From positions 1-48,931 of the IMG/VR virus record IMGVR_UViG_3300036830_000143: a DNA stretch of 48,931 bases, one strand, 5' to 3'. A model generated the notes under the pieces. It was not told the origin of the DNA, made no database searches, and saw only the letters and a program-made list of their open reading frames with translations. This DNA is from a virus. How positions within the stretch are numbered: position 1 is the first letter of the stretch; each line of letters starts with the position of its first letter. Positions 3-44,007 of the stretch are shown here, one piece after another. The position numbers and the translations under genes are program-made.

Positions 3-3000
3 CGGCAGGATTTGTCACTTCAGGAACGTGGATCGCCGCTGTCTCCAGATCAGGGAGTTCCCGACGCAGAACGCTCGATAGAACAGTCGGTCAAAGCTCT
101 TAAACAGAGCGAACGAGCTGCGATCTCAGCTAAGCGATCTGCTGCCGAAGCTGGGGATCAGGGGATCGCCGCAGCCGGCAAATTGAACTACATGCTGTCA
201 GAACTCGATGCCAGCGAGAAACGTCTTTACAACGGCGCTCGTCGTCTATATCGAGTTTACAAAGAAGTGATGAGGCCGATCACCGACATCATCCTCAACT
301 CTTTCACTTACGCCACCAACAAAGGTGTAGAACTTCTCGAAAACCCGCAGTTCCAGTCTGCTTTTGAGGATCTTGCCCACTCTATTGGCGACAATTTCAA
401 ACGAATCACCGACGAGTTCAATTCACCTCAGTGGATCAATTTCTTTTCAACGATGACCAAAGATGCTGGGGAGAGCCTCGGTCCATTGACTACTGCATTT
501 ATGTCTATGGCACGAGCTTTCAGGTCTATTGCTGAAGCTGCTTCTCCCGTGTTGCACGACATTGTCGGGTGGCTGGCTGAAGGAGCGCATGAGTTTGAAC
601 AGTGGGTGGGCAAAGGCAAAGGTCTCCAGGATTTCTTCAAAGAAGGAGAGCACGCACTCGAAGCTTGGCTTCAGCTAACCGGAGCCATTCTTAAGTTGTT
701 CTTGGCGCTCATTGGCACGTCAGCTAAAGATGGAACCAGCCAGGTCGAATCTCTGACCGACAGGATCAACGAAGCCACTGACTATATCGAACACCATCGT
801 AAACGGGTAGAAGCATTCTTCCATCAGGTCGGCGAAGTGATGTCGGTATTGGGAGATGTTCTCATCGCTCTTGGCGCTGAGATCCTCAAAGGCTTTAACG
901 TCGATTCAGTCAAAGATCTTGGCGATGTGATCATCAAGGTAGTCATTCCTGCTCTCGGCGAAGCGATTCGAATGTTCGGGAAAATCGGTTCCGTGTTGGC
1001 TGAGATCGCCAACAATCCGGCCGGCGAGTTTATGCTGAAATTCATCGGTTCGATCCTGATCCTGAAAGCTGTCCTGTCGCCCTTCATCTCGGTCTTGAAG
1101 GGCGCAGTCATCCAGATCTCCAAAGTTGCTCAGATGGCCACTGGACTCGTCCTAGCGATGACCGGAGTCAAAGCTGAGACGATTGCTGCACACGGTGCCT
1201 TCGATGTCCTGAAAGCTCGCCTTGCTGGCTACAGCGCTGAGTCTATAAATGCAGCATCGGCATCAATCGCATCTGGTGAGGCGATCGGAAGTTTGGGTGG
1301 TGTGTTGGACGCAACTGCTGTCGCTGGGGCAGGTGTCTCGGCCTCGATGTTCGCTATTCCTCTTGCCATTGCAGCTGTCATCGCTGCCTTCATCTACCTG
1401 TCCGCTCAGTTCGGTGTTCTCGATGACGAGTGGGAAGCGATCAAGGAATCTGGCGAAGGATTCGTCGAGCCGATCATCGGACCTCTTGAAGACTTGATCA
1501 AACAGGTTGAGGAACTTCTGAAAGCTCTTGGTCTATTGGGAGGAGGAGCAACTGGGCTCGGCAAGATCTTCGAATTCGTCTTCATCAAGATAGTCAAAGC
1601 CGAGATCATCCCGATGATCAAATTCTTTGGCAGCCAGCTGGCAATGGTTGGAGAACTGATTGGCGGATTCTTCACGGGGATATCTGGCGTAATAGAGATC
1701 ATCACCGGAATCTTGACTCTCAACTTCGACAAGATCGGAGACGGGGCTAAGAAACTGCTCATTGCTTTCACGACTCCGTTTCGATCCATGTTCAACCAGG
1801 CTAAGAGGATCGTGTCGATCGGAGTGGAAGTCATCACTGAGCTTTTCGGTGGAGTCTTCAGGTGGTTGATTCGCAAAGCATCAGGGATTCCCGGATCTAT
1901 AAGCGACTCTTTCAACGCTGTCGTTCGATTCCTTTCCAAACTTGGGCCTCGTGTTCTTCATGCAATCACGAGCGGTTTTGGCGCGGTTTGGGGGTGGCTG
2001 AAAGATCTTCCCGACAAGATGGAGAACTTTGCGAGGAAGGCAGTTTCGGCTGTCGTAGGGGTGTTCGAGTCTATGGGAAAGAAGATCCTCAATGCGATCG
2101 GATCGATTGCGGGAGATCTCGTCAACGCTGGTAAGAAGATTGGGAAGGAACTGGCCAAGGGTCTCCATCAGGCAATCAAGGACACGCCGATTTTAGGCAA
2201 GGCTCTAGAACTAGGAGAAGGGGCCATTGGTCTCGCAGGAAAAGGTTTGGGATACATCAACCCCTTCGCAGATGGCGGTCCAGTTGGTCGAGGAGTGGGT
2301 AGCCAGGACGATCAACTCGGTCTTCTAACTCGCGGTGAGCATGTATTGACTACCGACGATGTAAAGAATGCTGGAGGTCATGAAGCAATATTCGCTTGGC
2401 GTCGATCGCTCGGCGGTCGTGGAGGTCAGGGATCTGGTGGACGATTTGCTCAGGGAGGAAAAGTCAAATCTGGCGAACAGCAGTCCTTCAACGGAGTCAA
2501 CCTCGAAACTCTTCTCAGCATGATTCTTGTCTTTGGTGGCGAATCTGCTGAAGCCTGGAATGGAATCTGGAATGGAATCCAGAAACGAACTTCTATCGGG
2601 GTTCACTTTATCGAAAACCGTTTTGGTGATATGGAGCAGTCTCTGATCCAGTCATCAAAACGGATCAACAAGCAGGTAGTCAAATCATTCGATTCAATGT
2701 TTGGAGATGTTCGTGGTGATGTAAACCAGCTGACCGAGGTCGTATATCAGGGTCTCTCCTACATAGCAGAGATCACTGAAAAGGCACTCCAGGGATTCGG
2801 GGTCAAAAAAATAGACCTCTCTATTTCCAAACCCAAAGGCGTCGGCAAAGGCAAGGCTACTGGTGGGTTTGTCGGTAATCAGGGAGAACGGGGAGCTGAC
2901 AAGGAGCCGACTTGGCTTGGTCGTGGAGAGGCTGTTCTTCAGTGGGGTCACCAGAAGGTGGTTGATGGGGCTCTTCGCGTCGCTCACGGCTTTGGTCTGA

Positions 3001-6000
3001 ACGATCTCTTCGATCGCAACCATGGTGAGCATGCTTCTGGTGGATTCCCTGGTTTCGCCAAAGGACGACCTGGCATGTCCACGGCTGATCTTTTCGATGG
3101 CCACCCGAGCAACGTGGCATCGTCACTGCGAAAGCTGATCGAAATCATTAAGAGCAAATTTCCTGCACTCGGAGTGTCTTCCACTACTGATCACAGCCTA
3201 ATGACCACCTCGGGTAACATATCTGACCACACCACTGGTCATGCTGTAGATCTCTCAGCATCGATCCCTTACATGTTGAAAGCCGCAGGGTGGGTAAAAA
3301 GCAGTGGACTATTCAAACAGCTCAAGCAGGGAATTCACAATCCAAACTTAGCTGTTAACGATGGCGAATTTGTAGATGGACCTGGATTCTTCCAGGGAGC
3401 ATGGTCAGAACATATTGACCACATCCACCTTGCCGTTTTTGATGCTTTGAAAGGAGCTTTCGGTGGCGCTTTGTCGAAAGTTCCCAAAATCAAATTGAAT
3501 GGCACGGATGGTGTTTTAAAGGACTTTGCCCAGTCGGCAATCGAAAAAGTTCGTAAAGCAGCCAACAAAATGCTAGGTAAAAAAACCTCCTCCAACTTGG
3601 GCATTCATGGTTTCTCTTCCAAATCTAGTGCCGGCGAGATGAGTGAAGCAGAATTCATTCAGATAGCTCGTAAAGCTCTAGAAATCACTGGTCACAAAAG
3701 TGTTCCAGGAGGAGCCAGGATGCTTCTTTGGCTAGCTCAGAAAGAGTCTGGTCTTAACCCCAATTCGATCAACAATTGGGATAGCAACGCTGCTGCTGGA
3801 ATTCCATCTCAGGGATTGATGGAACTCATCCCTCCGACTTTTGAAAGCTACCACCAGCCAGGTACTTCTCGAAACATCAAAGATCCTTTGGCCAACATCG
3901 CTGCCTCAATCAACTATCAGTTCGCCAAGTATGGACATTTGGTTCATATGAGCCCTTATGCGGCTGGAGGTGTTGTAAGTGGCAAAGGTGGTGATGGATC
4001 ACCGATGCCGATTCTGGCTCATCTTGGTGAGTGGATTCTTAACCCTCGCCAGCAGATGCGAATGGCCCACATGATGGGGACTACCGTAGACAAGCTGAAG
4101 GGGATGCTCGGATTCAGTGGCGGGCCTACGAGCTTTGCTGGCGGCGGAGAACCGAGTGTAGGAATCGGAGGGGCTAAGCAAGCCAGTCTTCGGGATAGTG
4201 TCGTCAAAGGAACTTTTGTTGAAGAGTTGTCAGCCGAAGTTCAGGAACTGGTCGCAAAATCAGAACTCGTGATTGCGTCGATCACCTCCCACATCAAACG
4301 AATTTCCGTACAGCTGAATAAATTTGGTCGAGTAATTGGCAGGGGAGCACAGCCGGAGAAAATAGCTGAAGCGGAACTCAGGTTGTTGAATAAATCTTTG
4401 ATCGATCTGCTCGGAGAGAAAGGATTGATCAGCAAACAGATCAGAGATGTTGCGAATGAACTTGGGCGCGCTAGGACTTATCGCCGACAGGATGTTAAAA
4501 AAGCTACCGAGGAGCTTCGTAAGGCGGAAGAAGATGGCAATAAGAAAAAAATTGCGGCGGCTGAAAAAGAACTTGAGGAAATAAAAAAATCAGGCAAAGA
4601 AACGGAACGGAATATTCATCAGGGTCTTACTTCTTTGCGGCGAAGCAAAAAGTCCAAACAGAACGAGATAGCTGAAAAACAAGCTGAAATTCTCGAAAAG
4701 AGAGAGGCTGTTGAAACTGAAGTTGTTGCTTATCTAAATGAACGTGCTGAACGCAAAACCAGAGGATTGACTACCACTGCTTCGATTCAGTCGGCCTTTG
4801 GGTTCAGCGAAGCGGCCAACGCCACCACGGCCACACAAGTTCCGATCTGGCAGGAACAGAAAGCTGCCTTGCAGTCGGCTCTGAGTCGGGCTCAGGCTCA
4901 CAACAACGCCGCCTTAGCTTCTCAGATTGAGGGAGAAATACAGGGCCTCGAAGTCAGCATCGCGGAAGCGACCATGGCAATGTTCCAGGCAGGCATCGAA
5001 GCCGTCGAAAAACGCTTCGCTCGGGCCTCGGCTTTGCGCGGTGCGGAAGAAGTAGTCAATAATGCACGGCAGGCGATCATCGGTAACTCAGTACTAGCTG
5101 CCCAGTCTCGTACTAGCTTCCTCGCTCGTGAAGGCTCGGAAGAGGCAGCTCAGCTCGGTGAAACTCAACGCCTTCTCGCGGAAGCGATCGGCAAAAGCTT
5201 CGGGCCTGACGTGACCGAACCGCTCGAAGAAAAAATCTGGCAACTGACCGGAGCACTCGAAGAAAACCAGGCAGCGCAGTTCGAAAACACGATCGCTATA
5301 CGCGAAGCTCAGCTTGGACAGATCACCGGCAAAGGATCATTTAACACCGGAATCTATTCGACGCTCGAACAGATCATCACTGGACTCGGGTCGTTGAGCG
5401 GAGTAGTCAATCAGGGAAAGCTCATTGAACTGATCATGCAAGCTGGGCAAAGTCTCGGTGCAACCGGATGGGAACTGCGCGGTCAGCTCGGACGATTCAA
5501 CGAACAGACAATCGGTAGTGGTGAAATCAGCGGTCTGCTCGGACTCAAAGGTGAAGATCTAGTCAACGCCATTCAGCACCTCAACTTCTCCCAAATCGAG
5601 GCGACGCTTGGTAACGAAAAACTAATCGACGAATTCCGGAACCTGATCAACGCGATGCTTGAAAACGAAGTCGCGATCATCGGCAACACCAAACAGCTCG
5701 AAGAAGCGATGCAAGAAAACCAGATCCAGAGCTTCACGTCCACGGCTTGGCAGTGGTTCCGTTCAGCCATCTTCAACGGCATGGGTGGTCTGATGCCGCA
5801 GTACGCTGAAGGAACTCCCTTCTACGAAGCCGCCAGCGGCGGTGAAATGGGGAGCGACGGGACGATCAAGGCCCATCGTGGAGAGCTGATCATCCCCAAC
5901 CACTACAGCTCGATCTTGAGGGGCATGGCGCGCGCCGGCAACATAGCCGCCATGATGAGTGGAGGAAGCATCCCTGGCGTACCGCTGGGAGCCTCCCTCG

Positions 6001-14258: not shown

Positions 14259-14375
14259 ATGGCAAGTTGGGTGGGCAATCAGGTGAAGATCATTGGGTTG
14301 GTCACGCCCTTGTTATTGAGCATCATCGTAATGACGCCTGGTGTAGCATTCTTCGTGCTTTGCGCCCTGGTGTAA
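14259..14375 (+). CDS. 38-residue hydrophobic peptide gene
   Basis: The frame encodes a mostly hydrophobic peptide (VKIIGLVTPLLLSIIVM, then VAFFVLCALV), probably membrane-inserted. A GTG at 14250, overlapping the previous TAG, is an alternative start adding three residues. The last 15 bases overlap the first tRNA. That overlap and the weak ribosome binding site keep confidence low. It would be the fourth small membrane gene of the cassette. Confidence 0.38.
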   Translation: MASWVGNQVKIIGLVTPLLLSIIVMTPGVAFFVLCALV

Positions 14376-14431
14376 TGGAAGCACGGGTCGCTCTGGACGA
14401 TCTAGTCGTGGTTCGAGTCCCTGGGGCACAG
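14361..14431 (+). tRNA. tRNA-Gln (CTG), two stem mismatches
   Basis: The sequence folds as a tRNA: acceptor TGCGCCC with GGGCACA (one C-A mismatch), anticodon stem GGTCG/CGATC with loop CTCTGGA giving anticodon CTG, and a T-arm CGTGG-TTCGAGT-CCCTG with one mismatch. The layout GTGTAATGGAAGCAC in the D-arm is typical of tRNA-Gln. CCA is not encoded. Two mismatches leave open that it is partly decayed. Confidence 0.6.
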
Positions 14432-14433
14432 CT

Positions 14434-14506
14434 GCCCGTATAGCTCAGCTGGCAGAGCGTCGGCCTTTTAAGCCGAGAGTCCTGGGTTCGATCCCCAGTG
14501 CGGGCA
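14434..14506 (+). tRNA. tRNA-Lys (TTT)
   Basis: A clean cloverleaf: acceptor GCCCGTA with TGCGGGC (one T-G pair), D-arm GCTC/GAGC, anticodon stem TCGGC/GCCGA with loop CTTTTAA giving anticodon TTT, and T-arm CTGGG-TTCGATC-CCCAG. CCA is not encoded. It follows tRNA-Gln by two bases. Confidence 0.92.
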
Positions 14507-14511
14507 TTGAA

Positions 14512-14584
14512 TGGGAGCGGTCGGAATCGAACCGACGACACCATGCGTTTCAAGCATGTGCTCTACCAACTGAGCTACGCCCCC
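14512..14584 (-). tRNA. tRNA-Phe (GAA), minus strand
   Basis: On the minus strand the acceptor GGGGGCG pairs with CGCTCCC (one G-T), the D-arm is GCTC/GAGC, the anticodon stem is CATGC/GCATG with loop TTGAAAC giving anticodon GAA, and the T-arm is GTCGG-TTCGATT-CCGAC. It converges on the plus-strand tRNA-Lys, five bases away. It lies directly downstream of a minus-strand gene and is probably cotranscribed with it. Confidence 0.9.
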
Positions 14585-14591
14585 GTATTGA

Positions 14592-14849
14592 CTACCTGGG
14601 TTTGGGGAACCCAGGATCTCCGAAGCTAGGAAATCGTCCGGGAGCAGGAGGAGGACCAGAGCGACGCTTTTGGCGACGAGTGCCGCCGAGTAGCTTCATG
14701 ACGATTTGCTCTTTGGTCATTCCACATTCTATGCAGTCGTTTCGTTCGACTTGGGTCTGGACGTTCAGCGGGAAGTGATGGAAGCCGTCATAGCTCTTCT
14801 CACATGGCAGAAGATGGGTCCTCCAAGAGTTGTGATCGCCGATATCCAC
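14592..14849 (-). CDS. minus-strand small Cys-containing protein, upstream of tRNA-Phe
   Basis: An 85-codon frame opening with GTG at 14849. The product has a CxxC pair (DCIECG), an upstream Cys (LPCEKSYDGFHHF), a helix (MTKEQIVMKLLGG) and a basic Pro-rich tail. It reads like a natural small zinc-binding phage protein. Three things support it. A TAAGATCCCA box lies ten bases before the GTG on the same strand. The TAG stop sits inside a GTAGTCAA word in sense orientation, as at many genuine gene ends here. It leads straight into tRNA-Phe. The helicase frame extends upstream over it, but a helicase start at 14868 removes the conflict. Function unknown. Confidence 0.55.
   Translation of the reverse strand: MDIGDHNSWRTHLLPCEKSYDGFHHFPLNVQTQVERNDCIECGMTKEQIVMKLLGGTRRQKRRSGPPPAPGRFPSFGDPGFPKPR
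14595..14615 (-). other. hairpin at the end of the minus-strand gene
   Basis: An 8-bp perfect inverted repeat, CCTGGGTT and AACCCAGG with a 5-base loop, covers the last codons of the minus-strand gene, just before its TAG and tRNA-Phe. There is no T-run, so it is more likely an RNA processing or stability element than an intrinsic terminator. Confidence 0.4.
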
Positions 14850-14855
14850 TATTGT

Positions 14856-14865
14856 TGGGATCTTA
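14856..14865 (-). promoter_or_regulatory. TAAGATCCCA promoter box (minus strand)
   Basis: On the minus strand the context is ATGATAAGATCCCAACAATA followed by the GTG of the gene at 14849. TAAGAT fits the TAnnnT -10 of actinobacterial sigma-70 promoters, with an extended TGA in front. The predicted RNA start would be only a few bases before the GTG, giving a near-leaderless mRNA. Three further copies of the same 10-mer lie at other non-coding gene fronts. No good -35 is seen. Confidence 0.5.
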
Positions 14866-14867
14866 TC

Positions 14868-16280
14868 ATGGAGATCTCAGCTGTAATCGACAATCGAATT
14901 CGACTTCCCGGCTTTGCGCTGCCAGAAGATATGTCCAATGAGATCATTGGTGATCTCACGATTTACGACGAGGACGATGATCTGATTCTCGATATGTGGG
15001 AAGAGGATGATGGTGATCTCGTTGTTCCGCGTGGCTACGCCTTCAGGCTGGCTGAGCTGATCGAGGAGCACGAGATCGATGTGGAATGGATAGATCGCCG
15101 CGCCAAGGGCAAGGGATTTCCATGGGGCAAGCCTCTGCCTCTAGATCCAGAACAGAAGCGCATTGTCGAATGGGTGTTGGAGGCTGAACAGGGAATCGTT
15201 AAGGCTCCAACGGGAATGGGGAAGACCGTCACTTGTTTGGAGATAGTCCGTATCGTTCCAGGCGATGCAATTGTGATAGTCAATACCAAGGAGATAGCAA
15301 AGCAGTGGATGGATCGTGCTGTTGAATATCTTGGGGAGGATTTCCCCACCGAGCTAGTCGGTGATGGAAAGTTCAATATCGCTGATAGCGGTCTTACTGT
15401 GGCGCTTCAGGGGACTCTCTGGAGCCGGCGCGAAAAGCTCCAAGAAGAAGGATTCTTCGACCGCTTTTCACTTTGCATGCTCGATGAGTGCCATCACGCC
15501 ACGGCCCGGACTTTCAATGATGTGTTTGATCGCTTCAGTTCAAAAATTCGTATTGGCGTATCAGCTACCCCGGAAAAGACTGGGATCTTCGATTTAGCAG
15601 AGGTAGTCATTGGACCGATCATTGTCGAGGTTGATGAAGAGGATGTAGATCGAATCACCAAACCTAAGATCGAAGTCATCGAGACCAAACTAGGACGAGT
15701 CGAAGAGAAGAAGGGATTTAAGAAGGGGGCTCGTAAGAAGAAAAGGATCAACTATGAGTCTGAGTTGAAGAAACTTCTTGCCAGTGAAGATCGTCTAATG
15801 CTGGTGGTCAATGAGATTATGAGGAATCAGCAGCTGCATCGTAATCTGGTTATCTCAAAGCGAATCGAACATTTGGAAAATGTCTACGACGCTTTAGTTA
15901 TCGAGGGGTATCCAGAGGATCAGTTGGTAGCCATGGTTGGGGCTCACTCAATTGACGAACGAAGTGCCGCGATCGCCGCAGTTGAGGAAGGACCATGTGT
16001 TCTATTGACCACTCTTGCTGATGAGGCTTTGGATGCTCCTCTGCTGGAAGTCTTGCATCTAATATGGCCAACGGCTAATGTTGAACTTCTTCTCCAGCAG
16101 ATCGGTAGGGTTCGCCGGAATCATGCAGAGAAGAAAAAGTCTTTGGTAATTGACTACCGAGATCGTCAAGTTCCCTGCTTTGAGAGACAGTATATGAATA
16201 GACGCCACGGATGCTATGATGCTCGTTGTTTTACTGTTGTCAAGAGAGATAAAAAAGACGTGCATCGTAGAAAGCTGTAG
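14868..16280 (+). CDS. SF2 DNA helicase, UvsW/XPB-like, with replaced C-terminus
   Basis: ATP-dependent DNA helicase for recombination or fork repair. From ATG 14868 the motifs are Walker A APTGMGKT (about residue 113), DEAH-type box LDECHH (about 205), SATPEK motif III (about 231), and motif VI QQIGRVRR (about 410). The frame extends upstream to TTG 14706, but MEISAVIDNRIRLPG looks like a natural N-terminus and the upstream stretch overlaps the minus-strand gene. The last 35 residues (VPCFERQYMNRRH to FTVVKR) are duplicated at 17115-17243 in a different sequence version. A homing module inserted here has therefore brought in a new 3' end. Confidence 0.87.
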   Translation: MEISAVIDNRIRLPGFALPEDMSNEIIGDLTIYDEDDDLILDMWEEDDGDLVVPRGYAFRLAELIEEHEIDVEWIDRRAKGKGFPWGKPLPLDPEQKRIVEWVLEAEQGIVKAPTGMGKTVTCLEIVRIVPGDAIVIVNTKEIAKQWMDRAVEYLGEDFPTELVGDGKFNIADSGLTVALQGTLWSRREKLQEEGFFDRFSLCMLDECHHATARTFNDVFDRFSSKIRIGVSATPEKTGIFDLAEVVIGPIIVEVDEEDVDRITKPKIEVIETKLGRVEEKKGFKKGARKKKRINYESELKKLLASEDRLMLVVNEIMRNQQLHRNLVISKRIEHLENVYDALVIEGYPEDQLVAMVGAHSIDERSAAIAAVEEGPCVLLTTLADEALDAPLLEVLHLIWPTANVELLLQQIGRVRRNHAEKKKSLVIDYRDRQVPCFERQYMNRRHGCYDARCFTVVKRDKKDVHRRKL

Positions 16281-16742
16281 CCGACAGGCGAGATGTCGCG
16301 GCTATTGCACCAAGCATTACCAGCGCTGGAGAACGCATGGAGATCCTGAGAAGTTTCTGCGTTCCAGATTTGATGGAGAGAAGCCTAAATGCAAAGTAGA
16401 TGGTTGTGATAATGACTACTACTCTTCAGGATATTGCACGATGCACTATCGAAGGGTTCAGATTTCAGGAAACCCTGGCGAGGCTGGGGCGAGGCAAGCA
16501 GCTAGAGGCCAGCGCCGACACAAAATGGTGCCGGGTACATAGTCATTTCAGATGGAAATGGTGGCGCGATTTTGGAGCATCGGAAAGTGATGCAAGACCA
16601 TCTCGGTCGCGGTCTCTTTCCAGATGAGACTGTTCATCACAAGAATGGTCAAAGGGATGGCAACAGATATGGGAACTTGGAATTGTGGAGTTCCTGGCAA
16701 CCATCTGGACAGAGGGTTCAGGATAAAGGTCAAGTTTGCTAA
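16237..16742 (+). pseudogene. HNH homing endonuclease, frameshifted
   Basis: Two frames together make one HNH endonuclease. The first, to about 16525, carries paired zinc motifs (CIVESCSRQARCRGYCTKH and CKVDGCDNDYYSSGYCTMH). The second, from about 16521 and one frame back, carries the nuclease part (GYIVISDGNGG, EHRKVMQDHLGR, ETVHHKNGQRDGN, NLELWSSWQPSGQ). The switch point is the AAAA run at 16522-16525; one more A would restore a single frame. The protein is thus broken, or the sequence has an indel there, or a -1 slip joins the frames. TTG 16237 is a guess for the start; it overlaps the helicase end. It is the likely mobile agent of the insertion in the helicase gene. Confidence 0.75.
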
Positions 16743-16763
16743 AGAAATTTTGAATCGATATAA

Positions 16764-17114
16764 GTGAAAATCATGAAGAAATCTAAGAAGCAAAAAGATT
16801 GGGATCGTTCTTTGCGTGAGACCAAACCAATGACTTATGAGCAGAAGATGTTTCTTAAAGATTTGTGCAAACAAACTGGTGAGAGATTCAGTCATCTTCT
16901 TACTAAGGAGCAAGCTCGTTTTAGAATCGCCGAACTAAGGCAATTGCGAGATCAGCAGCAGGGTAAATCAACTCCTTCTGGTCTAAAAAAATGTCGCAAA
17001 TGTGGTCATAAATTCAAGCCTCGTGCATCTCGTGACATTCATTGCATTAATTGCATTCGTCAGTTTGAACGAGAAAAGAAGCAACGCGACCAAGAAGAAA
17101 TATTCAGTAAATAA
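16764..17114 (+). CDS. DUF3072-like protein with C-terminal zinc ribbon
   Basis: A 116-residue basic protein. The middle (PMTYEQKMFLKDLCKQTGE, then LTKEQARFRIAELRQL) resembles the small DUF3072 family, and the end is a zinc ribbon (CRKCGHKFKP, then CINC). Starts GTG 16764 or ATG 16773 are both possible; neither has a clear ribosome binding site. It lies between the homing endonuclease and the stranded old end of the helicase, so it came in as part of the same insertion or was caught in it. A DNA-binding accessory role is inferred only from the zinc ribbon and charge. Confidence 0.65.
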   Translation: MKIMKKSKKQKDWDRSLRETKPMTYEQKMFLKDLCKQTGERFSHLLTKEQARFRIAELRQLRDQQQGKSTPSGLKKCRKCGHKFKPRASRDIHCINCIRQFEREKKQRDQEEIFSK

Positions 17115-17243
17115 CAGGTGTCGCCGTTCGAGAAGCAGTACATGGGCCGGCGACACGATCTATACGAACCGAAGGGATTCACCGTTGTCAAACGTAAGCT
17201 CAGCGCGCCGCATGACCTTGTCCGAAGCCCACGGACGAATTGA
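17115..17243 (+). pseudogene. stranded original 3' end of the helicase gene
   Basis: An open stretch of 42 codons with no own start encodes VSPFEKQYMGRRHDLYEP then KGFTVVKRKLSAPHDL. It aligns with the present helicase end (VPCFERQYMNRRHGCYDA, FTVVKR) at about half to two thirds of positions. Its stop region overlaps the start of the next gene, as expected for an original operon junction. I read it as the displaced ancestral C-terminus, left behind when the homing module integrated with its own version of the 3' end. Confidence 0.75.
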
Positions 17244-17493
17244 CCACCTAGAGAAAGAACTGGAGAGTGTTATCAATCTGATCGATTCTGGTCAGAGCCG
17301 CGTTAATTCGTTGATCGCAAATATCGACGAGACTGGGCAGTCGCTTCGAGACAAAAACTCCAAGATGGGAAAGCATGGAGCCTCGAAGATGGTCCTTGAT
17401 CTGCTTCCAAAGGCTAGAGATATGCGTGGGTCTCTGAACGGGATCAAGGAGCGTTGTCAGATTGCTCTTAAAGGAGAGGTAGTCAATGTTTGA
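17212..17493 (+). CDS. coiled-coil protein, function unknown
   Basis: A 93-residue, mostly helical protein (HGRIDHLEKELESVINLI and a later LDLLPKARDMRGSL). The ATG at 17212 lies inside the stranded helicase end, overlapping it by 32 bases. It ends inside the GTAGTCAATG word that starts the next gene. A longer frame from 17002 runs over the upstream zinc-ribbon gene and is rejected. No domain is recognised. Confidence 0.6.
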   Translation: MTLSEAHGRIDHLEKELESVINLIDSGQSRVNSLIANIDETGQSLRDKNSKMGKHGASKMVLDLLPKARDMRGSLNGIKERCQIALKGEVVNV

Positions 17494-25967: not shown

Positions 25968-26243
25968 ATGAAAGGTTGTCCAATGGAGGTATCTAAGGAG
26001 GCGCTAGAGGCAGCGCAGGAGAAAGCCCGCGAGATAGATTTGAAATTCAATCCTTACAACCGAAAGAGCGATCGGGGGTGGCGTGGGCCGGCACATCGAG
26101 ATCGGCTTTTGCCGATTCTTCAGGCTGCGGCTCCAGCCATTCTTGAACAAGAGCGAGAGCGAATCTGGAAAAGAGTCTCTTTCGATTCCAGGCTAGCTCA
26201 ATGGGTCAAGGAATCTCTGAAGAGCATACTGTTCGATGGTTGA
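25968..26243 (+). CDS. hypothetical protein, 91 residues
   Basis: A helical, charged protein (ALEAAQEKAREIDLKFN, then HRDRLLPILQAAAPAILEQE, WVKESLKSILFDG). AAAAAGGATGG precedes ATG 25968; ATG 25983 is an alternative. Small proteins with this AARAAxR/ILQAAAP pattern are common in actinophages and often of unknown role. Confidence 0.65.
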   Translation: MKGCPMEVSKEALEAAQEKAREIDLKFNPYNRKSDRGWRGPAHRDRLLPILQAAAPAILEQERERIWKRVSFDSRLAQWVKESLKSILFDG

Positions 26244-26257
26244 TAGAATCAATCAGT

Positions 26258-26746
26258 ATGAGAAGATGTACGGCTTGCAAAAAGAACAAGCCAAATTCAG
26301 ATTATGGTCGAGATAAGCGTGGTCGTGATGGTCTTCGGTCTCGGTGTAAGAGTTGCGTCCACAACGACAATGTTCGCTATTACCACGCCAACAAAGAGGC
26401 TAGCCAGGTTAGGCAGAAGCAGTGGGTCAAAGACAATTACGAAAAATATCTTGAAACCAGCAGGAAACGGAATCGCAGAAATGCTGAGAAGCTCAAACGA
26501 GAAGTTATTGATTCCTATGGTGGTCAATGTGCTTGTTGTGGTGAGAGCGATATTCATTTTCTTACGCTGGACCATGTCAATGGTCGCCAGCCTGGCGAAA
26601 CGAAGAAGGGCGACAAGATGTATCGCCAGGCTCGTAAAGAGGGGTTCCCAAAGAAATATCGAGTCCTCTGTCATAACTGCAATTCAGCTTTTGGACATTA
26701 TGGATTCTGCCCTCACGATAAGAAAGCTAAGCGTCGTTATGCCTAG
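26258..26746 (+). CDS. HNH homing endonuclease upstream of the polymerase gene
   Basis: A freestanding endonuclease of 162 residues. N-terminal zinc knuckle CTACKKNK and CKSCV, a basic helical linker (RYYHANKEASQVRQKQW), then the HNH part: CACCGESD, LTLDHVNGRQPG and VLCHNCNSAFGHYG. It ends five bases before the TTG start of DNA polymerase, which itself carries an intein. Only the first Met downstream of a short upstream open stretch is used as start. Confidence 0.85.
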   Translation: MRRCTACKKNKPNSDYGRDKRGRDGLRSRCKSCVHNDNVRYYHANKEASQVRQKQWVKDNYEKYLETSRKRNRRNAEKLKREVIDSYGGQCACCGESDIHFLTLDHVNGRQPGETKKGDKMYRQARKEGFPKKYRVLCHNCNSAFGHYGFCPHDKKAKRRYA

Positions 26747-26751
26747 AGGAA

Positions 26752-29700
26752 TTGACTACTAACTTGATACATTTGCATCGTCATTCCGAGTTCTCGCGTT
26801 TGGACGGAGTTGGCACTGCGGTCCAGTATGCAGCGCGTGCGGCCGAGATGGGGCAGCCTGGTTTAGGTCTTACGGACCATGCCACCCTGTCTGGCTTGCT
26901 GCACCATATGAAGGCTTGCAGCGGCAAGGACGACAAGGGAAAGAAGCTCCACGACCCTCTCGTGCCGATATGCGGTGTCGAGGCTTACTACAGGCCCGAT
27001 AGGACGATCCGCGAGAAAGAGAACCTTCAGCAGTGGCACATGTGCTTCTGGGCCAAGAACATCAAGGGATGGCACAATCTACTGAGGCTCACCAGCGTTG
27101 CCTTTCGCGACAATGATGATGGCGAAGGTGGCTTCTACGGCAAACCATGTGTCGATCTACCGCTCATGGAGATGTACAGCGAGGGGGTCATTTGTTCGAC
27201 AGCCTGTATTTCAGGCTGGCTCTCTCATTGCATCATGCGAGGAGACAGCACTGGAGCTGATCTGTGGATCAAGGAACTGAAGCGGATCTATGGCGCTGAT
27301 CTATGGCTCGAAATTATGCCGCATGATTTCGCCGATCAGCGCACTGCGAACATAGAGATAGTCAATTTGGCTAATGACCACTCTGTCCCTCTGTTGACTG
27401 GGGTAGATGCTCATGTTCCTTACAAAGACTGGGCCTCCACTCAGCAGATAGCCAAGATGCTTTCAACTAAAAACACCTTCAAGAAGGCAGCGTCCATTCG
27501 TAAGAAAGCAGAAGAAAAAGGGATGGACCCCGAGAGCTTCGTCGAGATGATCCCGACTATCTACTTGATGGAAGAGCAAGAGGTACGCGATCTCTATGAC
27601 GAGGCTCACCCTGATCTACCTCAGCATCGAATTGACGAATCGATCGATCAGACTGAAGAGGTCATGCGTCGTTGCCAGCCTTTCAAGCTTTCAAAGCAGA
27701 TCAAGTTTCCGCGCGTTACTGATGATGCTGTCGAAGCCGAGAAGATTTTGCGTGACTGGGTTGAAGAAGGAATGGAGAGGATTGTCAAGCATGACGTTCC
27801 AAAGGTCTGGGAGGGAACTCGTAAGGAATTGGAAGATGAGCGTCGAGATCGTCTTGAGTTCGAGTTCAGGACGATCAAAGAGAAAGGGGTAATTGACTAC
27901 TTCATTCTCGTTGGAGACTGGGTTCGTTGGATGAAAGCCAATAAGATTCGTGTGACGTGCCGTGGTTCGGCGGCAGGTTGCTTTGTCTCATATCTGATTG
28001 GGATTTCGCCTATTGATTCGATTGCTTACGGACTTCTCTTCGAGCGCTTCTTGAATCCTGGCCGCAAGGGTCTGCCTGACATAGACATCGACATCCAGTC
28101 AGATCGCCGCGATGAAGCAATTCAGTATGTGGTGGACAAATATGGAAAAGACCACGTCGCTCAGATCATTGCCCATGGAACCTTTCAGGCAAAGAAAGTG
28201 GTCATTGACGTAGCCCGAGTCTATGACGTTCCCCATAAAGAGATTGAGCCTGTTCGTAAGTCGATCGACATCGGCCAGGAAGATGATGAGACGACGCTAG
28301 AGCAGTTGCGACCGATCAACGAGCATCTCCAGAAATTCGCTGATGACCATCCTGATGTTTATGAGCAGGCTCTACGTCTAGAGGGGATGGTTGCTACTGC
28401 TTCTAAGCATGCAGCTGGAGTAGTCATTACTGATAAGCCGGTTACCGACTACATGCCGTTGGAGCGAGGCAAAAAAGGCGACCAGGTTACGAGTTGGTCT
28501 GATCGCGCTGACTTTCCGGCAGTATCCGACTACGGATTCGTCAAGCTCGATGCTCTGGGAGTCAAAGGACTGTCGAAGCAGGACATCGCAGTGCAGCTGA
28601 TCAAAGAGCGTCACGGCATTGATCTCGATCTCGAAGACCTAGAGATTGTTCGTGATCCGCTCGCTGTCGAGCCCGAGGTCATGGACATCTTCACCAAAGG
28701 TTTGACGCTAGGAATCTGGCAGTTTGGATCTCGCGGGATCACCAATCTCGTCAAGTCGATTAAGCCAACCTGGATCGGTGACCTCATTGCAGCCAACGCT
28801 CTCTATCGACCTGGTGCAATGGGCTCCGGGGCGACGTGGGAATATGCTGAGCGCAAGGAACTGGAACCAGAGGAAATTGACTACTGGGATGATGCCGTAA
28901 AACCAGTCACTGGAGAGACCTTCGGGATCATTGCCTACCAGGAGCAGGTGATGAATATCTGCAAAGTCATCGGCGGTTTTAGCCCTGGTCAGGCAGACGA
29001 CATGCGGAAGGCGATGGGAAAACTCTATCGACTGCCCGGATCAGCAGCCAAGGAATTCATGCAGGGATTCAAGGACACCTGGGATGCCGGCGTCAAGAAG
29101 ATAGGGCTCGATCGCGAGGTTGGAGAGAGGATTTGGAACCTGATCTTGAGCTTCGGTGGTTACGGCTTCAACAAGTGCATCAGTGGAGACACGGTAGTCA
29201 TTAGATCTAGCGGCAACCAGCATCAGCCTGCCGAAGTGACCACTCGTGATCTGCACCAAGCCTGGCATTCATCTACTCCATGGGGCAAGAAGCTCCGCAG
29301 CCAGGGTCTGGAGGTTCTTCAGATGAGTGAGGACGGGCGGGTTCGTCCAGCTGAGTGTACCGGTATCCATTTCCAGGGCGTTCGAGAGGTCTTTGAGATC
29401 ACGACGCAGTCAGGTCGGAAGATCAAGGTCACCGGCAACCATGAGATGCTTCTCGCAGATGGTCATCACGAGCGAGTCGATCGCATTAACGTTGGTGATG
29501 AATTGGTTGCCATGGGTGAGCGCGAGGGCTATGTGAAGAAAGGTCATCAGACCGACCGAGCCCGAGGTCAATCCTATGGAGGCAAAGGATTTCCCGATGG
29601 CCTGAACAATCCCGCGTTCATGGATGGTCGACATGTCGCATTTGAAGACGGTAAGCGAGTCGTTGCCACTAGGGCTGAAGAAAAATGCGAGTGTTGCGGA

Positions 29701-30858
29701 GTAGTCAAAGGTAAGAAACACGATCTGGAGTTCGCGCATCTCAAATCTTTCGAAGATTGCGGATTTGACTACGCTGTCTATCACTCTCCTCAGAACATGG
29801 AACTCCTCTGCAATAGCGACCACAAGCGATTTGACTACGCCAAGGGAGAGCGAAAAGTTAGATGGAGCAAGGGTCGTCCGGTGTTCAACGATCCGATCGT
29901 CTCGATCGAGCGGCTCGGTAAGGAGGGTGTCTACGACTTGGAGATGGACACTCCTGATCACAACTTCATCGCCAACGGCCTTGTCTCTCACAACAGCCAT
30001 TCAGCTTGCTATGCAGTTCAGGCTTATCAGGATGCTTTCCTCAAGGCGTTCTACCCAGCTGAGTTTTATGTAGGTCTCCTGACCTTCCCGCCATCATCCA
30101 CGAAAAAGAAAGCTGAGGACAAAGCTAAGTTCCTTCAGAGCGTTGTGCGAGAGGCAGATGCAGTAGGAGTAGACATTGGCCCTCCGGATATCAATAAGTC
30201 TGAGAAGCACTTCTCTCTCAATGGTGAGACTCTTCGTTTTGGTCTGCTCGACATCAAGGATGTCGGTGGTAAAGCTGTTGATGAAATCACTCAGATACGA
30301 CCCTTCTGGAATTGGGGAGACTTCGAGGGCCGAGTAGTCAAAAAAACTTGCAACGCCAAGGTGAAGCGAGCTTTGGTGGAGGCCGGTGCTTGCGATCGTT
30401 GGGGAATGCGAGATGAGTTGTCTGCTAGTGCAATGGCTCAGTTTGAGAAAGAGCGACTGGGTATCTCATTGACTACCTCTGGTGACACTGCGAAGCACAG
30501 GGAAACGATCGAAGAGCACGTCTGGAACATGGAGGAGTTTGATGATGCTGCTGAGGAGGAGGAAGTAGTCATTGGCGGCGACGTGATCGACGTGAACATT
30601 ATGAAAACCAAGAAAGGCCGCAACCCTGGTCAGGAGATGGCTAAGGTGACGATCGCCTGTGGCTCCAACCAGTGGCAGGTGACTTTCTTCCCTCAGATGT
30701 GGGAATCCAAGAAGCATCTTGTCCAGAGCGGCTCCATCATGGTCGCCGGCAAGAAGAACGTCTATCGCAATGATCCAAGCGTGGTCGCCAATCAGGTGAT
30801 TTCAGTGGAGGATTGGATCAATGGATTGGCTAAGGAAGAAGAACTCGTTGAGGCTTAA
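26752..30858 (+). CDS. dnaE: DNA polymerase III alpha subunit (DnaE-like), interrupted by an intein
   Basis: The replicative polymerase of the phage. PHP domain at the N-terminus (HLHRHSEFSRLDG, residues 7-19); polymerase core with CRGSAAGCFVSYLIGI (about 403) and the catalytic Asp cluster PDIDIDIQSDRRDE (about 443); SFGGYGFNK/SHSACYAV is split by the intein after Lys808. The whole frame is 1368 codons; without the intein 1095. The start TTG lies within an antisense phage word (TTGACTAC) behind TAGAGGA, giving Met-Thr-Thr. The acidic Asp triplet and PHP residues look intact, so an active enzyme after splicing is expected. Confidence 0.92.
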   Translation: MTTNLIHLHRHSEFSRLDGVGTAVQYAARAAEMGQPGLGLTDHATLSGLLHHMKACSGKDDKGKKLHDPLVPICGVEAYYRPDRTIREKENLQQWHMCFWAKNIKGWHNLLRLTSVAFRDNDDGEGGFYGKPCVDLPLMEMYSEGVICSTACISGWLSHCIMRGDSTGADLWIKELKRIYGADLWLEIMPHDFADQRTANIEIVNLANDHSVPLLTGVDAHVPYKDWASTQQIAKMLSTKNTFKKAASIRKKAEEKGMDPESFVEMIPTIYLMEEQEVRDLYDEAHPDLPQHRIDESIDQTEEVMRRCQPFKLSKQIKFPRVTDDAVEAEKILRDWVEEGMERIVKHDVPKVWEGTRKELEDERRDRLEFEFRTIKEKGVIDYFILVGDWVRWMKANKIRVTCRGSAAGCFVSYLIGISPIDSIAYGLLFERFLNPGRKGLPDIDIDIQSDRRDEAIQYVVDKYGKDHVAQIIAHGTFQAKKVVIDVARVYDVPHKEIEPVRKSIDIGQEDDETTLEQLRPINEHLQKFADDHPDVYEQALRLEGMVATASKHAAGVVITDKPVTDYMPLERGKKGDQVTSWSDRADFPAVSDYGFVKLDALGVKGLSKQDIAVQLIKERHGIDLDLEDLEIVRDPLAVEPEVMDIFTKGLTLGIWQFGSRGITNLVKSIKPTWIGDLIAANALYRPGAMGSGATWEYAERKELEPEEIDYWDDAVKPVTGETFGIIAYQEQVMNICKVIGGFSPGQADDMRKAMGKLYRLPGSAAKEFMQGFKDTWDAGVKKIGLDREVGERIWNLILSFGGYGFNKCISGDTVVIRSSGNQHQPAEVTTRDLHQAWHSSTPWGKKLRSQGLEVLQMSEDGRVRPAECTGIHFQGVREVFEITTQSGRKIKVTGNHEMLLADGHHERVDRINVGDELVAMGEREGYVKKGHQTDRARGQSYGGKGFPDGLNNPAFMDGRHVAFEDGKRVVATRAEEKCECCGVVKGKKHDLEFAHLKSFEDCGFDYAVYHSPQNMELLCNSDHKRFDYAKGERKVRWSKGRPVFNDPIVSIERLGKEGVYDLEMDTPDHNFIANGLVSHNSHSACYAVQAYQDAFLKAFYPAEFYVGLLTFPPSSTKKKAEDKAKFLQSVVREADAVGVDIGPPDINKSEKHFSLNGETLRFGLLDIKDVGGKAVDEITQIRPFWNWGDFEGRVVKKTCNAKVKRALVEAGACDRWGMRDELSASAMAQFEKERLGISLTTSGDTAKHRETIEEHVWNMEEFDDAAEEEEVVIGGDVIDVNIMKTKKGRNPGQEMAKVTIACGSNQWQVTFFPQMWESKKHLVQSGSIMVAGKKNVYRNDPSVVANQVISVEDWINGLAKEEELVEA
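29176..29994 (+). mobile_element. intein with HNH endonuclease in DNA polymerase III alpha
   Basis: 273 codons between FNK and SHSACYAV. Splicing blocks: N1 Cys (CISGDTVV), block B KVTGNHEML, block F GVYDLEMDTPDHNF, block G LVSHN followed by Ser as +1. The middle holds an HNH unit (CECCGVVKGKKHDLEFAHL, NMELLCNSDHKRFD). All splice residues look intact. It interrupts the highly conserved FNKSHSA polymerase motif, a typical intein choice. Confidence 0.9.
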
Positions 30859-31248: not shown

Positions 31249-31680
31249 ATGACGGTCGATACTGATATAGCTTGGGCCGCAGGTTTCTTAGACGGAGAGG
31301 GACATTTTGGCGCTCGGTTCCGTAGCGGGGGAAGAACTAGTCTGGGTGTCGAACTGACTGCATCTCAGACCCACAAGGCTCCGATTGACAAGCTCGTCGA
31401 AATTTTTGGCGGTGCAGTTCATGAGGTTTCGAAAAAGACTACGACCGGCAGAACCACCTGGCAGTGGACGATTGCCTCAGGAAAACGTTTGCGTGAGGTA
31501 TTGCCTCTTTTGATTCCGTATTTGACTACCAAGAAACAAGAGGCAGAAATTCTGCTCGAACTTTCAAACACGTTTTTGACTAGCCGGTCCCATGGAGGTC
31601 GCATGCCATGTACTCCAGAGATGACTGAGAGAAGGAAAGAGATGATCAGCAATCTAAAATCTTGGAGGTCTGTTGCATGA
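31249..31680 (+). CDS. LAGLIDADG homing endonuclease upstream of recA
   Basis: A 143-residue single-motif endonuclease (IAWAAGFLDGEGHFGARF; acidic residue in DGEG). One LAGLIDADG motif means it would act as a dimer. The rest (LVEIFGGAVHEVSKKTT, WQWTIASGKRLREVLPLL) matches the family fold. It starts at an imperfect word, AATAGTCAATG, and overlaps RecA by ATGA, so the two are translationally coupled. RecA itself carries a LAGLIDADG intein. Confidence 0.88.
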   Translation: MTVDTDIAWAAGFLDGEGHFGARFRSGGRTSLGVELTASQTHKAPIDKLVEIFGGAVHEVSKKTTTGRTTWQWTIASGKRLREVLPLLIPYLTTKKQEAEILLELSNTFLTSRSHGGRMPCTPEMTERRKEMISNLKSWRSVA

Positions 31681-33527
31681 GCCCGGTTGATACCAGCAAG
31701 CGCGCAGAAATCATCTCGCAGATCGAGAGTGAGTACGAGGGATCTGTTCTTCGTGGGGACGAGTTGCACAACCCAGCTCGAATTCCCTTTGAAAATCTGG
31801 AGTTGAACCACCTGACCGGAGGTGGCATCCCGATTGGTCGATGGACCAGGATGTATGGAGGGTGGTGTCTGGCACCTGGAACCTATGTGCTGAAGAGAGA
31901 TTTCTCCTGGGTGCCTGTTGGCGATATTCGCGAGGGAGACGAACTCATTGGCTTTGAGGAGTTTGCTGCTAATCCCGGTCCAGGCAAGCAACGTGTTTTT
32001 GAACCATCGATAGTTGAAGCTAACCCAATGAAAAAGCTGCCGACTCGGCGGATTGTCAACGATAAAGGGGTCGAAACTTGGGCCAGCAACGATCATCTCT
32101 GGCTGTGCAGCAACAAGCACAACGGAGCGACCGAATGGAAACGGAGCGTTGATCTGGTTCCTGGCGACAAGATTCTCTGGTTCGGCAACCCTTGGTTTGA
32201 TTATCCACCCAAGCCAGATATTTGTGGCTATCTTGCTGGTCTTTTCGATGGCGAGGGGTGGGTGGATAGATCGCGAGCAGCCTTTGCTCAGCTGGACGGA
32301 CCCGTGTTCCGTCAAGGAATTGACTATCTAGAGCAACTTGGATTCAAAGTAGCGATTGGGGACGAGCATCCTTCGGTCAAAGCCACGAAGTACGGGCGTC
32401 CAGTCAAACGAGCAAGAATTGGCGGGACGGTCAGTGAGATGATGCGCTTTCTCGATTTGATCCCTTCTCTTCGGATGCGCGAGAACGCTGGCGATTGGTG
32501 GATCGGGAAAGGGATCGTTTCGAAGGGTCGCCATTCCGAGCCAGGATCTTGCTATGCGACTGTGGTGGTCAACGAGGATCGCGGAGAAGAGAATCTTTGT
32601 TGTATCCAGACCTCTAGTAAAACTTTGATCGCCAATGGGATGTATTCGCACAACTCCTCCACCAAGACGCGAACTTGTTACGCGATCATCGCCGAGGCTC
32701 AGCGCATGGGAATGGACTGCGTCTACTACAACGTCGAGAAGCAGTTTGACGATGATGCTGCTTCTCGTGCTGGCATTCTTACCGAGGATCTAACTGTCAT
32801 TGAAGGGACTCAGATAGAGGCCATTGGCGAGAAGATGGAGGCCCTGCTAGGAGTTGCTCACCTTCATGTCGTCGACTCTTGTTCCGGAGCAGTTTCCATG
32901 GCTGAGCTGGCAGCCGAGGTGACCGACAACTTTGTTGGCATCAAGGCCCGGACCTGGGGCAAAGTGCTGGCTCGGGCTCATGAGCGCATGGACCCCAAAG
33001 AGAACACCTGCATCCTCATCGACCAGATGCGAATGACTTTCGGTGGGAAAATGAGGCAGGCCACCGAAGAGCCACCTGGTGGTCGATACATGAACTTTCT
33101 CTCCAGCCTCAATCTCAATTTCAAAAAAGGCAAATGGATCTACTACGACAAATATGGGGAGTTGTCGGAGAAAGGCAAATCAGCAAAGACTCTGAGCGGA
33201 AGCGACGAGCCCGAGGGACGTGTGATCAAGGTTCGCAACGAGAAGAGCAGGATTGGCCGCCCGGATCAGTCAGCTAGCCTCTACTTCGATCTCAATCGCT
33301 ACGACTTTGATGTCGAGTGGGAATACGTCAAGGCGCTCAAATACCTTGGCTGGGCGAAGCAGAGCGGGTCATGGTGGGAGGTCTCTACTGACGCTGCTGA
33401 AGAGAAGGTGCAGGGGGATCATGGACTGCGTGAGCTGCTTGCCGAGTATCCGGAAATCATGGAGGAGTGCCTAGATGCCGTGATGAAGCTGAACAAGATT
33501 CCTGATGATGAAGATATAGAGGAGTAG
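31677..33527 (+). CDS. recA: RecA-like recombinase interrupted by an intein
   Basis: Strand-exchange ATPase for recombination-dependent replication. The first 63 residues (LTGGGIPIGRWTRMYGGW) lead to the P-loop, which is split by the intein; after splicing it reads GGWSSTKTRTC. Later motifs: DCVYYNVEKQFDDD, LHVVDSCSGA (Walker B) and TCILIDQMRMTFGG with loop-2 region. Exteins total about 353 residues, normal for phage RecA. ATG 31677 overlaps the preceding endonuclease stop. A longer start at 31662 lies inside that gene. Confidence 0.9.
   Translation: MSPVDTSKRAEIISQIESEYEGSVLRGDELHNPARIPFENLELNHLTGGGIPIGRWTRMYGGWCLAPGTYVLKRDFSWVPVGDIREGDELIGFEEFAANPGPGKQRVFEPSIVEANPMKKLPTRRIVNDKGVETWASNDHLWLCSNKHNGATEWKRSVDLVPGDKILWFGNPWFDYPPKPDICGYLAGLFDGEGWVDRSRAAFAQLDGPVFRQGIDYLEQLGFKVAIGDEHPSVKATKYGRPVKRARIGGTVSEMMRFLDLIPSLRMRENAGDWWIGKGIVSKGRHSEPGSCYATVVVNEDRGEENLCCIQTSSKTLIANGMYSHNSSTKTRTCYAIIAEAQRMGMDCVYYNVEKQFDDDAASRAGILTEDLTVIEGTQIEAIGEKMEALLGVAHLHVVDSCSGAVSMAELAAEVTDNFVGIKARTWGKVLARAHERMDPKENTCILIDQMRMTFGGKMRQATEEPPGGRYMNFLSSLNLNFKKGKWIYYDKYGELSEKGKSAKTLSGSDEPEGRVIKVRNEKSRIGRPDQSASLYFDLNRYDFDVEWEYVKALKYLGWAKQSGSWWEVSTDAAEEKVQGDHGLRELLAEYPEIMEECLDAVMKLNKIPDDEDIEE
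31866..32654 (+). mobile_element. intein with LAGLIDADG endonuclease in the RecA P-loop
   Basis: 263 codons between GGW and SSTKTRT. Cys1 (CLAPGTYVLKRDFSW), an unusual block B region with WASNDHLWL, an endonuclease motif YLAGLFDGEGWVD, a C-terminal LIANGMYSHN and Ser as +1. Splice residues look intact. The insertion lies inside Walker A, the most conserved part of the gene. Confidence 0.88.
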
Positions 33528-39504: not shown

Positions 39505-39990
39505 ATGAAGGTCTTGGGAATTGACCCGTCAAGTTCAATCAGTTCTCTTGCTCTGGTCGAGGGCAAGGATCTGCTCAAGACCTGGCTGTGGCAGAAGGAC
39601 AAATCCAAATCTGATGCCCAGAACCTGTTCAACTACTACGAGTGGGCAAAGAAGGTAGTCAATAATCCGTTTGGGGGAGTTATTGCCCCGATGGCATGCG
39701 TCGAGTTCTTGAGGGTAACCAGGAACGCTGAAGCATCTCGAAAGATCAGTCATTACCAGGCTGCCTCGGTGATCGCTTGCAAAGAGTCAGGCATTGTGAT
39801 CATCGAGGCAGCAGCGACCTCCGCGAGGAAAGAGGCGCTGGGGAAGGGGAATCTCTCGAAGGAGGAGGTTCATGCGCTGGTGAAAGCTAAATATCCCAAC
39901 TTCAAGTTCAAGGCCAGCAATCGAGGAGGCATGGATGAAACGGATGCCACCGTCCTCGGTCTAGCAGGGCCTGGACTTGCTGAGCGCTAG
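39505..39990 (+). CDS. RuvC-like Holliday junction resolvase
   Basis: A 161-residue RNase H-fold nuclease. GIDPSSSISSLALV gives the first Asp (residue 7), ACVEFLR the Glu (about 67), and DETDATVLGLAG the last Asp pair (about 144-147), the arrangement of phage RuvC. It would trim junctions before packaging; terminase follows two genes on. The stop overlaps the next GTG. Confidence 0.85.
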   Translation: MKVLGIDPSSSISSLALVEGKDLLKTWLWQKDKSKSDAQNLFNYYEWAKKVVNNPFGGVIAPMACVEFLRVTRNAEASRKISHYQAASVIACKESGIVIIEAAATSARKEALGKGNLSKEEVHALVKAKYPNFKFKASNRGGMDETDATVLGLAGPGLAER

Positions 39991-40796
39991 TGGCCGGCTA
40001 CAAAGGGATGAGGATGCCCAAGTGCCCTCCGGGATGCACTTGCGGTAAACATGTGCCTCGTAAAAACACTGGCAAGAAATGTCTACCTGGATGTAAATGC
40101 GGCAGGCATGTTCATCCGCAGTCGGATGAGACCCGTCGGAAAATATCTGAGAGTCACATCAAGAGAGTCTTGGCTCAAGGAGAGCTTGTTCATCCTGACA
40201 AAAAGCGCTGTGCTAAATGCAAAAAATGGAAGCGTCTCCCTGAGGACTTCTATTACAAGAAACATCATCTGAAATCCGGTCTAGTTCGTGGATACCCAGA
40301 GAGTATCTGCATCTCCTGTCGTCTTAAGAAGAACAAACAATGGGTCAAAGATCAGGGACCTAAGAAAATGCGCTCTCGCCGCCGCCAGTACACCGAGAAT
40401 CGCAAACAGAAGCTGGGTCTGGATGAGTTCCGCCGCCGGGAACGAGAGAAGCGAGCTTTCCAGAATCATCGCGCTGGCAAGAAGAAACATTCGGCCCGGA
40501 CTAGCCCTGGCTTGGAACCCAAGGTAGATCGACTACCTATAGTCAATTTCTTGCTCAAAGAGCTGAAGCGACGAGGATGGACTAAGAATGAGTTAGCAAA
40601 TCGTTCTGGTATCGACGCTAGTCGTCTCGATCGCATCATTGCTGGCGAGGAAAAATCCAAGAAGGTCAAGAGCGGCGTGGTCAAAATCAACAAAATCACT
40701 TGGGATAATGTCGATCGAATTCTGTGGGGACTTGACCAGGAGCAGATGTTGACTATTATGTATTCAGACGATGAGGTAGTCAATGACGACGACTAA
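39990..40796 (+). CDS. homing-endonuclease-type DNA-binding protein fused to helix-turn-helix
   Basis: A 268-residue protein lacking a visible nuclease core. Two copies of CPPGCTCGKHV / CLPGCKCGRHV lead into SDETRRKISESH, the NUMOD3-type DNA-binding element of homing endonucleases. A zinc ribbon follows (CAKCKKWKRLPEDFY, CISCRLKKN). The C-terminus is a helix-turn-helix (RRGWTKNELANRSGIDASRL). It may be a former homing enzyme turned regulator. GTG start overlaps the previous TAG; it overlaps the next gene by 14 bases. Confidence 0.65.
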   Translation: MAGYKGMRMPKCPPGCTCGKHVPRKNTGKKCLPGCKCGRHVHPQSDETRRKISESHIKRVLAQGELVHPDKKRCAKCKKWKRLPEDFYYKKHHLKSGLVRGYPESICISCRLKKNKQWVKDQGPKKMRSRRRQYTENRKQKLGLDEFRRREREKRAFQNHRAGKKKHSARTSPGLEPKVDRLPIVNFLLKELKRRGWTKNELANRSGIDASRLDRIIAGEEKSKKVKSGVVKINKITWDNVDRILWGLDQEQMLTIMYSDDEVVNDDD

Positions 40797-43501: not shown

Positions 43502-44007
43502 TGACTACTCTCGTTAAAACTGCCACGGAGATCTGTTCGAAGTGCGAGGAGGAAAAGGATCTTGATTGCTTCTCCAAGAGCAAGCGGCATAGTCAGGGAC
43601 GGCAGGCTTGGGGCAAGGATTGCGCTCGGTCTGCACGAAGTGATTGGGTTGATCGCAATCCCGAGCGAGCAAACCAGCTTAGATCTGAGTCCCAGCAGCG
43701 CAATCGAGAGGCAGCCAATCTTCGTTATCAGAGGTGGAGGGAATGTCACCCAGGCCGCGAGTACAACCTCAAGCGTCACCGACGACTAGCTGTCTCTTGT
43801 CCTGAGGCTGAGATAGTAGATCGCAATGTCGTCTTTGTTCGAGATGAGGGAGAATGTGGAATCTGTCACGGCCAAGTAGATCCAGAGAATTTTCACATCG
43901 ATCACATCATCCCTTTGTCTAAGGGTGGTAGTCATATCTATTCCAATGTTCAACTCGCTCATCCACGCTGCAATCTGATTAAGGGAAATCGCCTTGGCAT
44001 CAGCTAA
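43501..44007 (+). CDS. HNH endonuclease upstream of the portal gene
   Basis: A 168-residue freestanding nuclease. N-terminal zinc knuckle CSKCEEEKDL with KDCARSAR, a basic helical linker, then HNH: CGICHGQVDPENFHIDHIIP, LSKGGSHIYSNVQLAHPRCN and GNRL. The HNH core is complete. It overlaps the portal start by 14 bases. HNH proteins next to terminase can help packaging; here the location before an intein-bearing gene suggests homing instead. Confidence 0.85.
   Translation: MTTLVKTATEICSKCEEEKDLDCFSKSKRHSQGRQAWGKDCARSARSDWVDRNPERANQLRSESQQRNREAANLRYQRWRECHPGREYNLKRHRRLAVSCPEAEIVDRNVVFVRDEGECGICHGQVDPENFHIDHIIPLSKGGSHIYSNVQLAHPRCNLIKGNRLGIS

Follow-up and report, generated by a model that had tools for sequence, protein, structure and literature searches.

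This locus raises the question of why a phage helicase gene is followed, about 0.9 kb downstream, by a second, diverged copy of its own end, with a homing-endonuclease gene and a small gene lying between the copies. The window, that is, the whole stretch of DNA analysed, is a 48.9-kb IMG/VR virus record. It carries tail genes and genes for a DnaB-like helicase, primase, DNA polymerase III alpha, UvsX and terminase/portal. The arrangement is probably a WHO-like homing module in a phage, in which an HNH gene and a substitute 3' end for its target gene travel together.

Anatomy of the helicase locus

The following features are distinguished.

14706..16280, plus strand: putative hybrid SF2 (XPB/UvsW-like) DNA helicase gene (Pfam, PHROG, PDB profiles, AlphaFold)
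16119..16280, plus strand: putative replacement 3' end of the helicase gene (codon usage, modelled fold); left limit 16119 probable, homologous part 16167-16247
16216..16767, plus strand: HNH homing-endonuclease gene with two zinc-finger repeats and HNH_3, broken (PHROG HNH families for both halves, Pfam, relatives)
16764..17114, plus strand: cargo gene, 116 aa, DUF3072-like N-terminal part and possible C-terminal zinc ribbon (sub-threshold Pfam)
17115..17243, plus strand: putative stranded former helicase 3' end (similarity to the upstream copy, native-like codons)
17212..17493, plus strand: next gene of the old operon, 93 aa, function unknown (ORF); overlaps the stranded helicase end

The helicase gene matches Pfam ResIII (E=3e-22) and the PHROG 16 DNA helicase family (E=7e-49); in a PDB profile search it matches XPB/RAD25/UvsW. 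The AlphaFold model has a pLDDT of 83. Confidence is low before about residue 57, which suggests a start downstream of 14706; the true start is uncertain and probably lies nearer 14868. The replacement tail is modelled as the final helix (490-506) and a strand (510-513), both ordered (pLDDT about 91), so the predicted hybrid helicase would be a complete protein. Genes for tRNA-Gln and tRNA-Lys (plus strand) and tRNA-Phe (minus strand) lie at 14361-14584, just 5' of the helicase gene.

The upstream tail, QVPCFERQYMNRRHGCYDARCFTVVKR, comprises 27 residues encoded by helicase codons 16167-16247; the helicase stop is at 16278-16280. The second copy, QVSPFEKQYMGRRHDLYEPKGFTVVKR, is encoded at 17115-17195, in a frame that stops at 17241-17243. 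The first-pass annotation had noted both helicase ends, and both are confirmed where it put them. The tails are identical at 17/27 residues and 44/78 nt. The match is well above chance: its BLOSUM score is 88, whereas 2,000 shuffles reach at most 49; z is 11.6, and the pair has E = 1.3e-4 in a self-comparison of the whole window that yielded only four segment pairs in all. R500 and Y504, which vary little or not at all across 25 aligned helicases, are present in both tails. First and second codon positions agree between the copies at 18-20/26, third positions at only 6/26. Among the 17 identical residues the same codon is used at 6, versus 8.1 expected from independent draws. Silent sites being saturated, the pair is not a recent tandem duplication. 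With residues kept and third positions randomised, both tails were probably long under protein selection in separate lineages before they met.

Homology restarts at CAG 17115, the codon directly after the TAA (17112-17114) of the cargo gene. The stranded frame shares 32 nt with the next gene (ATG 17212), bearing out the overlap described earlier. The same frame had been called an open stretch with no start; it is open, but not strictly startless, a possible start, GTG 17118, lying 3 nt past the upstream stop.

The HNH gene begins within the helicase end. Its two Cys-rich N-terminal repeats and HNH_3 domain are also found in intact phage relatives. The gene is broken by two compensating frameshifts, with indels at about 16535 and 16727: the zinc-finger half is closed by TAG 16540-16542, the HNH half is read in another frame, and the conserved C-terminus (KVKFAKEILNRYK) returns to the first one. 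The read-through translation matches HNH_3 at E=2.9e-5 and 24.1 bits, just below the cut-off of 24.8; the intact relative at capsid locus L151 scores 35.5 bits. Judged from its frames, the HNH gene of the window is now dead. The gene reported between the two ends is thus present, though not intact. Its neighbour, annotated as a DUF3072-like zinc-ribbon gene, is likewise there, with a DUF3072 match below threshold (24.9 bits, cut-off 27.5) and a zinc-ribbon match that is weak as well. No phage homologue of this 116-aa product was found by tblastn at E<0.1.

The two tails differ in codon usage. Measured as a native-versus-insert ratio, usage in the upstream tail is like that of the HNH/ribbon insert, at the 0.3 percentile of native 27-codon windows, whereas the stranded tail, at the 94th percentile, is native-like; the former has a GC3 of 37% and the latter one of 70% (Fisher p = 0.03), all of these contrasts resting on 27 codons. 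They support a foreign origin of the upstream tail and a native origin of the stranded one. Helicase codon usage turns insert-like from about 16119, just past motif VI (QQIGRVRR), with an LLR of 8.4. Since an equal or larger suffix score is reached in 2/23 native genes, this position is a plausible, though weak, candidate for the left boundary, as a homologous crossover point.

Single-protein, alignment and C-terminal DNA pattern searches of IMG/VR, INPHARED and GTDB, in which records very close to the window may not have been included, yielded no helicase relative exceeding about 30% identity, so an uninterrupted allele was not seen. No sister phage was found through DnaB. Matches to a relaxed C-terminal DNA pattern at L096 and L097 were attributed to chance. 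Streptomyces phage BRock, in which an HNH gene directly follows a helicase gene, was set aside: its helicase belongs to another family and is without a stranded end.

Capsid loci and survey of HNH relatives

Relatives of the HNH gene were collected, and their loci were tested for a downstream duplicate of the tail of the upstream gene. Stranded ends are rare: apart from tandem paralogues, they were detected only in the window and at the sister loci L151 and L204 among the HNH loci surveyed. At L151 an intact relative of the window HNH gene (2986-3549) follows a major capsid gene (1392-2891; PF05065). Capsid GC3 is 63-97% before 2562 and 40-77% from about 2562 on. A putative stranded capsid end (3542-3670; GC3 91%) lies immediately 3' of the HNH gene. 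By its layout L151 is a second, independent locus with the same anatomy as the window helicase. At L204 the stranded end is kept, but of the HNH gene only the start and the last codons are left. The L151 stranded end has about 35% identity to the capsid family; the present tail has 81% identity to L179. Being less family-like than the present tail, the fragment may stem from a diverged older capsid allele and not be a simple pre-insertion copy.

Loci L099-L102, L112, L138, L164 and L174 were considered as stranded-tail cases and rejected; there the HNH gene apparently lies between whole tandem paralogues instead. These paralogues (L099/L100, L101, L102, L112, L138, L164 and L174) are apparently of tail type. 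Nuclease-driven recombination between paralogues is possibly reflected in this arrangement.

Capsid 3' ends were compared in a set of 25 relatives, 8 with an adjoining nuclease gene versus 15 without. The mean GC3 drop over the last 50 codons is 0.29 where an HNH_3 or endonuclease VII gene lies directly 3' and 0.08 where none does (Mann-Whitney p = 2.4e-5, shared ancestry ignored). A GC3 drop is present as well in the nuclease-free capsid genes L185 and L189. Over the last 30 codons, identity to the closest nuclease-free relative falls further in most nuclease-adjoining capsid genes than in controls: from 0.85 to 0.59 in L181 and from 0.94 to 0.75 in L196, compared with a loss of 0.14 or less in nuclease-free controls. 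When genes of any kind next to an HNH gene are tested more loosely, the result is no more than suggestive (p = 0.04). Endonuclease VII genes lie directly 3' of AT-shifted capsid ends at L186, L187, L196, L203 and L206, in parallel to the HNH cases. Group I introns (RF00028) are present within the major capsid genes of two uncultivated phages (L204:3146-3532 and L206:2314-2635); one capsid gene family is therefore hit mid-gene by introns and at its 3' end by homing nuclease genes.

Mechanism and alternative explanations

In the proposed mechanism the HNH gene would travel together with a target-gene 3' end taken from a diverged relative. The nuclease would cut the helicase gene of a recipient phage close to the 3' end. 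During repair on the donor template, helicase homology near motif VI, at about 16119, would anchor the left side, and the tail with its divergent codons would be copied in along with the HNH gene and the small cargo gene. The right joint would fall in the middle of the recipient gene, just 5' of CAG 17115, leaving the original end stranded downstream. The host gene would be kept intact as a hybrid, its recoded end presumably no longer matching the cut site; as the donor tail differs at most silent sites, it probably resists cutting. We infer movement of the module by homing, as well as the cutting, target site, tail resistance, transfer direction and repair route.

Identical anatomy would be produced by ordinary mosaic recombination, in which a diverged helicase 3' end and its downstream genes were joined illegitimately and the HNH gene was a passenger, not the driver. 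The broken state of the HNH gene and the rarity of stranded ends among HNH loci agree with this. However, the same HNH subfamily lies at the junction in two unrelated genes, helicase and capsid, and a compositional shift at the capsid 3' end is far commoner beside nuclease genes than in their absence; mosaic recombination is therefore considered unlikely. The fragment at 17115-17243 could instead be a functional small gene (41 aa from GTG 17118) derived from an old tandem duplication and acting, for example, in trans on the helicase. Its frame is open, the conserved R and Y are kept, and its start lies close behind the preceding stop. Yet it corresponds merely to the last helix and strand of a domain, no relative with the fragment as an independent gene was found, and an ancient duplication would leave both the codon contrast and the L151 parallel unexplained. 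This origin is regarded as very improbable.

Splicing has the least credit, and only a slight chance is left to it. A self-splicing intron with a read-through end would give the upstream tail when unspliced and join the helicase body to 17115 onwards when spliced. The restart of homology exactly past a stop codon, and the occurrence of group I introns in capsid genes of related loci, are in its favour. Against it, the upstream copy already forms a complete conserved tail, needless for an intron, and no group I intron was matched by Rfam in the window at the gathering threshold or at E<=5. This negative result is informative, because the same search finds RF00028 in L204 and L206. A group I intron with a homing endonuclease was accordingly rejected, intron core RNA around the HNH gene not being detected; the earlier exclusion of an intron holds. 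A split gene of the mobE/nrdA type was also discarded, since the upstream product already carries the whole tail, modelled at high confidence. The reading already put forward in the first-pass annotation, in which a homing module supplied a new 3' end and stranded the old one, fits best with the saturated silent sites, the codon contrast and the loci L151 and L204.

A wider proposal is tentative, being rated somewhat short of an even chance. Such modules may form a recurrent class of phage homing elements (HNH or endonuclease VII) that carry, as part of the mobile unit, the 3' end of an essential gene in recoded, cut-resistant form. They would act as natural home-and-rescue drives, and core genes such as those for capsid and helicase would have their 3' ends replaced again and again, with no splicing involved.

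Comparison with known systems

WHO elements of Torulaspora/Lachancea yeasts target FBA1; their insertion swaps the 3' end of the gene, the old end is pushed downstream, and the elements decay to pseudogenes (PMC7282813). As in WHO, the endonuclease gene adjoins a full-length target (HNH after helicase in the window, HNH after capsid at L151), and the old 3' end of the target is stranded past the endonuclease gene (17115-17243 in the window, 3542-3670 at L151). WHO elements differ in residing on a yeast chromosome and in having an intein-derived endonuclease with a C-terminal zinc finger; here the location is a phage genome and the enzyme has HNH_3 with N-terminal zinc-finger repeats. The target is FBA1 in WHO and a predicted helicase and capsid in the phage loci. 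Since the phage enzyme is an HNH protein and not an HO/VDE homologue, the module is not a WHO element by descent.

Fungal mitochondrial mobile ORFs with foreign C-termini are described from Allomyces (atp6) and Glomus (atp6, atp9, cox2, nad3) (PMC3630166). The in-frame foreign C-terminus, the endonuclease ORF next to it, the native C-terminus duplicated downstream, and the combination of low DNA identity with high protein identity are all shared with the phage case. The fungal enzymes, by contrast, are LAGLIDADG or GIY-YIG, the elements reside in mitochondrial DNA, and their transcripts were verified, whereas the phage case is read from DNA only. Free-standing homing endonuclease genes (HEGs) are also known to split phage genes, as mobE in nrdA of Aeh1 and mobA in topoisomerase gene 60 of T4 (PMC2988022). 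The presence of a free-standing HNH homing gene within an essential phage gene is common to these and to the window. In the mobE and mobA cases, however, each half is expressed and needed, and the two reassemble; the window, by contrast, has a complete upstream gene and a redundant downstream piece. Phage HEGs near essential genes mark boundaries of genetic exchange and form HEG islands (PMC10448857); a replacement gene end with a stranded relic is not among the features described in the part of that source consulted. No description of a phage homing nuclease with a replacement gene end was found in the open-access literature, and the arrangement is apparently undescribed in phages.

A module of this kind would extend to bacterial viruses the mechanism known from yeast WHO elements, homing that carries a new gene end with it and needs neither intron nor intein, but with another nuclease family and essential targets. 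It would give a concrete route to chimeric phage core genes and account for orphan C-terminal fragments. It would also offer a natural precedent for cut-and-rescue gene drives, cheaply testable on cloned DNA.

Further HNH/endonuclease VII-like genes are located at 26201-26746 and 39990-40796 of the window; the whole-window self-comparison revealed no extra stranded gene end beside either. Intein-like insertions are present in the UvsX/RecA gene (31662-33527; CLAPGTYVL...NGMYSHNS), in the portal gene (43994-47449; CQPAGELVLTFNRGYVPIEDL) and in the DNA polymerase III alpha gene (26752-30858), the last matching HNH. This one phage carries several kinds of homing element.
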